Source: Apostichopus japonicus
Lineage: Eukaryota > Echinodermata > Holothuroidea > Aspidochirotida > Stichopodidae
Direction of reading: 5' to 3'
Length of the DNA stretch: 64,000 bases
Assembly: GCF_037975245.1 (NCBI RefSeq)
Contig: NC_092563.1
Coordinates: 234,001-298,000, forward strand
Each line of letters starts with the position of its first letter. Positions within the stretch are counted from its first letter, which is position 1. Of this stretch, positions 19,313 to 33,900 are shown piece by piece. The translations under genes were made by a program, and so were the position numbers. Below the pieces are notes generated by a model. It was given only the letters and a program-made list of their open reading frames with translations. It made no database searches and was not told the origin of the DNA.

Positions 19313-22300
19313 TCAAGTTTCATTTTTTATGCTTGATAGGGCCTCTTCCTTTGTAACTAATTCCCATGGAATGGAGGCTCTCTTGCAATTGTAGTATCTT
19401 GCAAGGTCGTCGTTAAAACGCGAAAGCACCCACTTCCAGTAAAGGGTTGCTTCATAATTAGAGATTGGTTTGATATCCCACTCCGGAAAATCATTTCTGT
19501 ATTCCTTGTATGGTCTTGGGATGTGTTCACACGTTTTTCCGTGACAACCACATGTGTAATATCTTTTGCTTGACGCGACATTTGCAGTACAAGTATCACA
19601 CAGAAGCTTTCTACTAGAACGAACTCGGCGACCACTTACACCATTCGGGAAATGTAGATTAGAAAAATGCATTTTGTGTTCTTTGACAGTGTCGTCACAA
19701 AGGGTCCTGCAAAAGGGACACTGGATTCCACATCCCTCCATCGCGTGAGCTAGTACAATATGCAACTTTTTGGGAAGGCCGTTAAACCATTCCTTGATAT
19801 CCGAGATGCAGCTAGTATCTGGAAGTTCCGCATGTTGCAAAAGTTTCGGTTGCATAGTATTCTGAACTAGATTTTTACATTCTGCACCAAACACGTCATA
19901 ATCGGATATAACTGTGTACATTTTCTTATCAGATATAGCTTCTTCGTTCAAAGATGACTTTACTGACTTTTCAAAATACTCGGTAAAGGTTTCAACCCAC
20001 TTTTCGAATGAAACGTCGCTTTCACTTTCTGCTCGAAGGGAACGCAAAGTTGCATCCAGTGATACACCCGTCTCTCGCAGTATTTCACCAATTTCGTGCA
20101 TTGCAATATCTTTGATTCGAATACAATTCTCTGTTTCTTCACAGCATTCTTTGGCAATAAAGGATAATGTCCATGTTTGCAGAAATGTTGAGTGTCGCGT
20201 AAGAAAACCAATATAATTTTCAAAGTCTTCTTCTTGACAGAGGTTCTCTAAAACCGCTATTAAGAAACGAGGTCTGCTGCAGAACATTTCGTCGCCAGAT
20301 TTAATCAATCGCTCAAACATTGCTGAACAGATTCGATTCTGTAGACATTGCTTCAGAGATTCCTCGATAATAGAGCAAAATGATTTAGCTGCCAAATGAT
20401 CCGAGCATGTACCATCACATAAGGTCTTGAAGTCTTGATACAAAGCGTGTTTTTCCTTCTCCAGTAAGGTTGTTACACTGTTTTCCTGTTCAAATGTAGT
20501 TTGAACATCCACACATATAGGGAAGGCCCAGGAGCAGAGGTGTGCAATAGAAACGATATGTTCCCGCTGACCCAATTCTTTGCGTGCGCTCAACTCCTGG
20601 TTAGTGGAAGTAATCATATCCCTTATTATGGTGGAACTGTAGGACCCATTACTTTTGATCTGCGCAAGAAACGTCTGACGTGCTTCTGCCACAATAGAGA
20701 AAACAACATGGACGTTTTCCCTTTCTAGTATTGGTAGTTCCATCATGAAGCACTTATCAAGTGTGTGTCGTGTGTCCACCGTAGGTACCATTTTGGCAAA
20801 CTTCTGAATGTTCTCTTCTGATAGACCAGCTAACATCTCAAATACTTCAACAGGCACAAGTGCCTTGACAATTTCAATAAATTTTGTCATTTGATCGATG
20901 ATGTCTACAGAGAAGAGGTCCAAATGTGCTTGCACTTCAGACCAAGATACGCGATCAGCTAGAGCATCCATTTCAGAGCGAACGGCTTCTTGAATGTAAA
21001 ACCCACACGCTTCGCATTGGAGATGCTCGCGTTTCCTATTATCAGTCAAACGAAGTTTATTCAATAATTCACTAACCATTTTAACGAAATCCTTTGTTAC
21101 TTTTAGTGAATACCACTTTTTTCTGTCTACCCTTGACGTGATTTCATTAAGATTAACTCGAACTTTGTGCAAGAAATTTTCGTCACTGTAGTCTGATTCC
21201 CATCCAAGCATGTCCGTTATAACCCAATTAGTCAATTTCTTCAGCGTGCTTTTAGTAGCGCGGTTTAATGTTTCATTTTCGAGACACGCAGTAACATGGC
21301 GTTTAATTTTCCACTCCGTACATATATCAGGTTGTTTTAGTTTGACTAATAGTTCCTGATTCTGAATTATCTTCTTCAAAATGCTTTGCTTGTGTGCGAC
21401 ATTTGCGGATTGCACAATGTTACAAGACAGGATAACGATCAAAGCTGTTTTATTTCTACATCCTGGGCAAGACTTTGAAACGATGCTCGTCAGTGACCTT
21501 CTGACACTGTCCAAGAATTCTTCAGAAAATTTAAAATCCTCTTTGTCGCATGCCGTTCCAACAACATCAAGTAAGACGTTTACTAACCTCGTCATATCTT
21601 TATCGCATGGTCCTATTAGTCGAAATGCTTCATCTGCATCTCTTTCAGATTTCATAGGTGGGGTCATTTCACAAAGTCCTTGAAGTTTGTGTGTATTCAG
21701 TAAATCTCTCATTGCCATACTATGACTACTACGTTGCAGACACTCCTGGACACATCTATAAATTTCAGCTTCAATGTTCTGCCGAATTCGGTCTTCACTA
21801 TTTGTCGGATGGACAAGCTCGATATTCTTCATACATTTTGACCACTCTTCTTCAAATGTTGTCTTCACGAGCTCTTCAGTCTTCAGCTCAGATATTTGGT
21901 CCTTATCCTTACCACTGTAACTTTGGAGGAATTCGTTTTGCAGCTTTTCTGCAACTGGAAGAACTTGCCTCCGCAAATCCGCCTTAAGCTTCGGTAGAAT
22001 TTGGTTTTCTTTTGCTGTGGCATTGCTGATGATATCGGACTGAAAATGTATCATTTTCTTCACCGTGTCTAAAATGTTCTTTTCGAAAAGATCTAAATCA
22101 CGGTAAAAATAAGTGGAATGGTGTCGAACACTGTCAAATTCTCGGTTTTGCAATGTTTCACTAATGTTAGCTCGTATTTCACTCATTTCTTCAGTCATTT
22201 TGTGTTCAAGTTCTAATAGTAAAGTTTCTTTCCGTCCTTCAATATTCTCAACAGTTGAATTTCGAATTTGTTGCTTCGCTTCAAGTTCCCACTGCATCAT

Positions 22301-33900: not shown

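Follow-up and report, generated by a model that had tools for sequence, protein, structure and literature searches.

Human GVIN1 is described as coating bacteria in the cytosol, and its predicted dimers are joined via the GTPase domains (PMC11974893). In the zebrafish, inflammasome-dependent clearance was reported to need both the GTPase activity of Gbp4 and its CARD, with which it joins the Asc speck (PMC4932187). In invertebrates, DED-TRADD-N pairs were described, and TRADD-N was found to be fused to the AIG and GBP GTPases (PMC8195603). In this study, which was based on a window of 64,000 nucleotides (the whole stretch of DNA that was analysed, C3:234001-298000) of the sea cucumber Apostichopus japonicus and on searches of its genome (671,581,487 bases, 35 contigs), we describe a locus that appears to join a small death-fold domain to a giant GTPase. 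In our preferred reading, one minus-strand gene encodes a low-complexity head, repeat linkers, a DED-like domain and a GTPase, the assembly of which would signal cell death or inflammation; we put the probability of this reading as a whole at roughly 0.55.

Gene structure and its recurrence in the genome

On the minus strand of the window, five short exons (A, R1, R2, R3 and the DED-like exon) run into a single GTPase exon of 5.9 kb (Table 1). The DED-like exon comprises 115 full codons and split codons, and the GTPase exon, after its split codon, continues for 1969 codons and a stop at 19313-19315. When the donor CCAAAAG/GTCAGT is joined to the acceptor TATAACAG/AT, a GAT codon (G/AT) is completed in frame at phase 1. 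The coordinates, strand, donor, acceptor and phase-1 junction that had been proposed in an earlier, sequence-only reading of this DNA were all recovered when the window was read again, and position 33900 of that reading proved to be the start of an additional exon, exon A. Two other copies of the gene are preceded by stretches whose translation is 63% and 58% identical to that of exon A, and R1-R3 were also recovered by a repeat search of the window. An initiator exon was not found: Pfam gave no family at E 1 on all three minus-strand read-through frames between 33.8 and 63.7 kb, and upstream of exon A the comparison with the other copies returned only matches that contained stops or were repeated.

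Table 1. Features of the predicted gene, with positions given in the window
Feature	Position	Strand	Details
Exon A	33900-33771	(-)	130 nt, phase 0 in, phase 1 out; low-complexity
Repeat exon R1	32653-32564	(-)	90 nt, phase 1-1; codon score by itself non-coding-like
Repeat exon R2	29882-29793	(-)	90 nt, phase 1-1
Repeat exon R3	29334-29245	(-)	90 nt, phase 1-1
DED-like exon	29000-28653	(-)	348 nt, phase 1-1
Intron separating the DED-like and GTPase exons	28652-25225	(-)	3428 nt
Giant GTPase exon	25224-19313	(-)	5912 nt; open frame, Pfam matches
URGCP domain (PF25496)	24772-23909	(-)	exon residues 151-438; E 9.1e-58
Large GTPase domain (PF25683)	23479-22517	(-)	exon residues 582-902

Other features were also seen in the window. 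A reverse-transcriptase fragment (RVT_1; 30822-31073, plus strand, E 2.8e-6) lies in the intron between R1 and R2, and a second one (14634-15080, minus strand, E 7.5e-6) is located downstream of the GTPase exon. A plus-strand frame at 61569-61724 matches aminotransferase class V (E 3e-6) and perhaps belongs to a cysteine desulfurase gene on the opposite strand, and an open minus-strand frame at 175-648, which resembles ubiquitin weakly (E 4e-4, below the cut-off), may belong to another gene.

When the genome was searched with the protein of the DED-like exon, seven matches were returned, including the window (eight candidates were scored). The window copy is referred to as W and the other six, around each of which 20 kb were fetched, as P1-P6. 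In all seven copies a GTPase exon lies downstream on the same strand, and those of the other six are 63-86% identical over most of their length. The intron between the paired exons measures 1.02-3.43 kb (1.02-2.33 kb in the six besides the window), and both the phase-1 boundaries of the DED-like exon and the phase-1 GTPase acceptor were read from the sequence in every copy. With seven copies at random positions, about 0.005 same-strand pairs within 15 kb would be expected by chance, and since the copies are duplicates of each other, their pairing does not represent seven independent events. One of them, L014-L015 (C3:5267300-5287299), has a broken GTPase frame, which is 1118 codons long. Exon boundaries of phase 1-1 are the usual pattern for shufflable modules, and the number of repeat exons varies in the stretches that were fetched: the window has three and P1 has four, P2 and P6 have a single one each, and none was found in P3-P5.

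The copies form two groups, W/P1/P2 and P3-P6, with a synonymous distance of 1.1-1.7 between them. The dN/dS of the DED-like exon is 0.18-0.26 between the groups (12/12 pairs); these ratios are approximate because dS exceeds 1, and their low values indicate that the exon is coding and has long been constrained. Within P3-P6, which make up the C3 5.2-5.4 Mb cluster, the ratio is 0.59-1.62 (six pairs, few changes), which points to either relaxed constraint or fast recent change of the DED-like exon in this one cluster. An eighth, divergent gene was found on C9. Its GTPase core is 43% identical, a DED-matching frame lies 5.8 kb upstream of the core, and its donor and GTPase acceptor were also read as phase 1. 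A DED within 15 kb upstream was detectable at eight of the 61 detected GTPase loci, seven on C3 and one on C9; with the 45 Pfam DED hits of the genome, 0.03 DED-GTPase pairs would be expected by chance. The GTPase loci besides these eight could carry DEDs that are too divergent for the searches used.

The GTPase body and its family

The assignment of the large exon to the GVIN/URGCP-type giant GTPases, already made in the sequence-only reading, can be regarded as firm on its domain matches: Pfam gave 344.1 bits for URGCP_GTPase (cut-off 55) and 196.4 bits for URGCP (cut-off 27). The P-loop motif GxxxxGK[S/T], here GIQSSGKS at residue 699, and DTEGL at residue 752 are present in 7/7 copies. In a PDB sequence search, the exon matched SEY1 with an E of 3e-8 and GBP and Mx chains with E values of 0.03 to 0.6. 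Viral contigs were scanned with both the DED-like exon and the GTPase domain, and a collection of genome contigs with the GTPase domain alone; no relative was confirmed. A Gvin1-like transcript is given as 'Down -2.67' in a table of A. japonicus coelomocytes after Vibrio challenge in the available part of PMC4519954, and it may come from any of the 61 loci.

The GTPase core matched at least 67 stretches of the genome, which were merged into at least 61 loci, some of them fragments. These URGCP-type loci, for which 61 is a lower bound, are found on C1, C17 and other contigs, many in tandem clusters, and represent a large expansion. Of 31 loci tried, 29 gave a sequence for a tree of the URGCP domain; L041 and L046 had no long enough match, and that of L027 was partial. 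In this tree, the C3 clade grouped with C7 (0.972) and had the C17 clade (0.999) as its neighbour; the C9 gene grouped with a gene from C1 (0.868). Because C3 and C9 stand apart, the DED fusion would be either old and partly replaced, or made twice.

Other N-termini were seen within the family. The subgroup at C17:5236462-5544613 consists of seven GVIN-type GTPases (including L052, L053, L029 and L030). Two of the seven were sampled. At the start of their open frames lie 392 and 384 residues for which MACPF was the best match in Pfam, at 18.4 and 16.6 bits, below the cut-off of 21.5. These segments share the frame of the GTPase (12 and 33 bases excluded), and a pore-forming-type N-terminus on a giant GTPase is possible in the C17 genes. 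The local DED-like profile found nothing in the 7 kb upstream of both C7 loci, nor upstream of the two sampled C17 loci (of the seven there). Pfam gave no match on one C7 locus, and no N-terminal domain was recognised in the two C7 genes, whose GTPase exon starts after a similar acceptor. No Death match (PF00531) lay near a GTPase locus among the 150 matches scored of 204 candidates, which were compared by eye. Elsewhere in the genome, matches are densely clustered at C16:10.2-11.1 Mb for DED and at C12:19-34 Mb for Death. A view that we offer only tentatively is that the family may form an NLR-like set of intracellular defence proteins, in which a constant sensing and coating GTPase body would be combined with a swapped N-terminal output, i.e., DED-like on C3 and C9, MACPF-like on C17 and others elsewhere.

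What the small domain may do and what it may be

The arginine of the RxDL motif is part of the charge triad in DED contacts. It is missing here: the RHDL of FADD aligns with ANEA in the window copy, and the residue at the position of the arginine is A in three of the copies, T in three and I in one. Its loss would fit a domain that only helps self-assembly, or one that dampens DED signalling.

In the reading that we prefer, the GTPase body would bind GTP, dimerise and assemble on an invading microbe or a damaged membrane, as do human GVIN1 and the GBPs. This assembly would cluster many DED-like domains and so nucleate a death-fold complex, with FADD/caspase-8-like proteins or other DED proteins, for which the genome holds dozens of candidate exons, as the putative partners. 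The repeat exons would serve as a tether whose length is variable between the copies, and the assembly of the coat would thereby also signal inflammation or the death of the cell. By analogy with zebrafish Gbp4, it is plausible that the DED-like domain couples the assembly of the GTPase to death-fold signalling, as the sequence-only reading had proposed, and we rate this at somewhat less than even odds.

A real fusion, the domain of which serves only the self-assembly or auto-inhibition of the GTPase and has no caspase or adaptor partner, is a possible but rather doubtful explanation. The missing arginine fits it, as does the accessible text of the human GVIN1 paper, in which 'death domain' and 'CARD' have no hits (PMC11974893). 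Three features speak against it: the domain is under purifying selection between the groups, the 45 DED hits provide many possible partner exons in the genome, and the domain lies N-terminal to the body on a linker, an arrangement that is probably common for signalling death folds. Since cFLIP can block DED assembly, the domain could also be a regulator or decoy with which the GTPase restrains cell death while coating a microbe. The degenerate RxDL motif would be consistent with this, as would the elevated dN/dS among the copies of the C3 5.2-5.4 Mb cluster, and we consider it improbable.

As for its identity, the small domain very probably has a DED-like fold. In Pfam searches, both DED and Death were matched weakly by all seven copies, with a best E of 8.3e-5 for DED and 1.3e-4 for Death, and none of the other families matched more than two of the seven. 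The window copy scored slightly better with Death (17.2 bits, E 0.0057) than with DED (PF01335; 16.1 bits, E 0.014), both below the curated cut-offs, which is 35.9 bits for DED. That Death scores as well as DED would favour a death domain, but in the window copy the DED match spans the profile (6-81 of 82), whereas the Death match is confined to the second half (40-83 of 86). Genome-wide DED and Death searches at E 0.001 recovered none of the seven C3 copies. A death-fold Pfam match was obtained in 0/8 shuffles of the exon and other weak matches in 2/8.

With hhalign, the DED of FADD aligned end to end over 82 columns (23% identity, P 0.0017, a probability of only 15, pairwise and with no database background), and the death domain of FADD over 11 columns with a probability of 1.5. 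The C9 domain has DED as its only death-fold match in Pfam (29.5 bits, E 9.2e-7; 32.0 bits genome-wide; below 35.9), with no match to Death, and the profile of the seven copies aligned with it over 85 columns (probability 90.5, P 1.4e-6), a value that is pairwise, with no database background, and relates to a domain that is itself below the cut-off. On these comparisons, we regard the C9 domain as the strongest link of the small domain to DED. The AlphaFold models contain five helices, compared to the six of a death fold, at low confidence (pLDDT 55.2 and 59.5), and structural searches with them gave no significant match, which would suit another helical bundle; among PDB sequences, the exon and its profile had insignificant hits only. 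Considering both sides, it is unlikely that the domain is a death domain, or some other bundle of helices, and not a DED. Because of the score below the cut-off and the missing RxDL arginine, we name the domain DED-like and not a canonical DED. The death effector domain of the sequence-only reading was thus upheld in part: the death fold by profile and the likeness to DED by alignment stood, and the assignment at the DED cut-off did not.

The DED-like exon and the GTPase exon almost certainly belong to a single predicted fusion gene, and their joining, as first proposed, is well supported at the level of sequence by 7/7 copies and the divergent eighth gene. In the seven copies, the frame of the GTPase exon has its first Met only at residue 51-79, and residues 1-84, which reach just beyond it, have a dN/dS of 0.32-0.39 between the groups (4/4 pairs computed). 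An in-frame ATG before the GTPase acceptor is common to W and P1, and another to P4-P6; P3 is without any, and an ATG common to all the copies, in frame and before the acceptor, was not found. The late Met, the constrained residues and the lack of a common ATG speak against two separate genes. That the small exon closes a short gene of its own and the GTPase begins separately is very unlikely: beyond the donor its frame does stay open until the stop at 28567, so that it could be a last exon, W and P1 have their ATG, and human GVIN1 is described as intronless (PMC11974893), but the pair, orientation, donor and phase are kept in all seven copies, the read-through tail is not the same in the two copy groups and scores as non-coding-like (-0.24 per codon, by a weak measure), and the start of the GTPase exon is constrained even though the copies share no ATG before the acceptor.

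The codon score mentioned here was trained on the GTPase exon and is a weak guide to coding. Outside that exon, the DED-like frame was the highest of the frames listed (33.4; next 18.7). Per codon, the DED-like exon reached 0.171 compared to -0.242 for the read-through past its donor, and for 28 overlapping open stretches equal to it in length, which may include the DED-like exon itself, the 95th percentile was 0.164. R1 had -0.185 per codon, and about -0.005 and -0.049 were obtained for two parts of the GTPase exon; the score was set aside as proof of coding and selection between the copies was used instead.

Comparison with known systems

If our reading is true, one polypeptide would combine death-complex signalling with a giant GTPase that coats microbes; to our knowledge, the link in vertebrates is made only by a CARD on a smaller GBP, or by separate proteins. 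It would also offer a direct route to asking how GVIN coats signal. Moreover, it would suggest that large-scale use of this GTPase family, with N-terminal modules that can be exchanged, is made by an invertebrate; as far as we know, the sea cucumber is an animal without classical interferon.

The NACHT module is an ATPase with sensor repeats. The DED-NACHT receptors of amphioxus, sea urchin and Nematostella resemble the predicted protein in having an N-terminal DED on a nucleotide-switch body, and differ from it in that this body is a NACHT and not a dynamin-like GTPase, as far as they are described in the available part of PMC2575513. The DED and TRADD-N fusions of other invertebrates show the same lineage-specific shuffling of death-fold or TRADD-N modules onto immune proteins, although GVIN, VLIG and URGCP have no hits in the accessible text of that work (PMC8195603). 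A fusion of DED and GVIN was not seen among the results of full-text searches of open-licence literature (protein-architecture databases lay outside this scope), which agrees, within that scope, with the statement in the sequence-only reading that no such fusion had been described. A single paper, PMC7106639, contained both 'death effector domain' and 'very large inducible GTPase', and there they occur only in the reference list.

The sea-cucumber gene shares with human GVIN1, VLIG and URGCP the URGCP and URGCP_GTPase domains, the P-loop and the giant exon (1969 residues here vs 1808), and it adds to them an N-terminal DED-like domain and repeat linkers via phase-1 exons, whereas the human GVIN1 gene is described as intronless (PMC11974893). 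The nearest tested analogue is zebrafish Gbp4, which is likewise an immune GTPase with a death-fold domain, as described in the accessible part of PMC4932187. It differs in belonging to the GBP and not the URGCP family, and in carrying a CARD in place of a DED-like domain, at the C-terminus and not the N-terminus (PMC4932187). Alongside these systems, the predicted sea-cucumber fusion would be a further case of an immune GTPase that carries a death-fold domain, and one that is notable for its scale and conservation.
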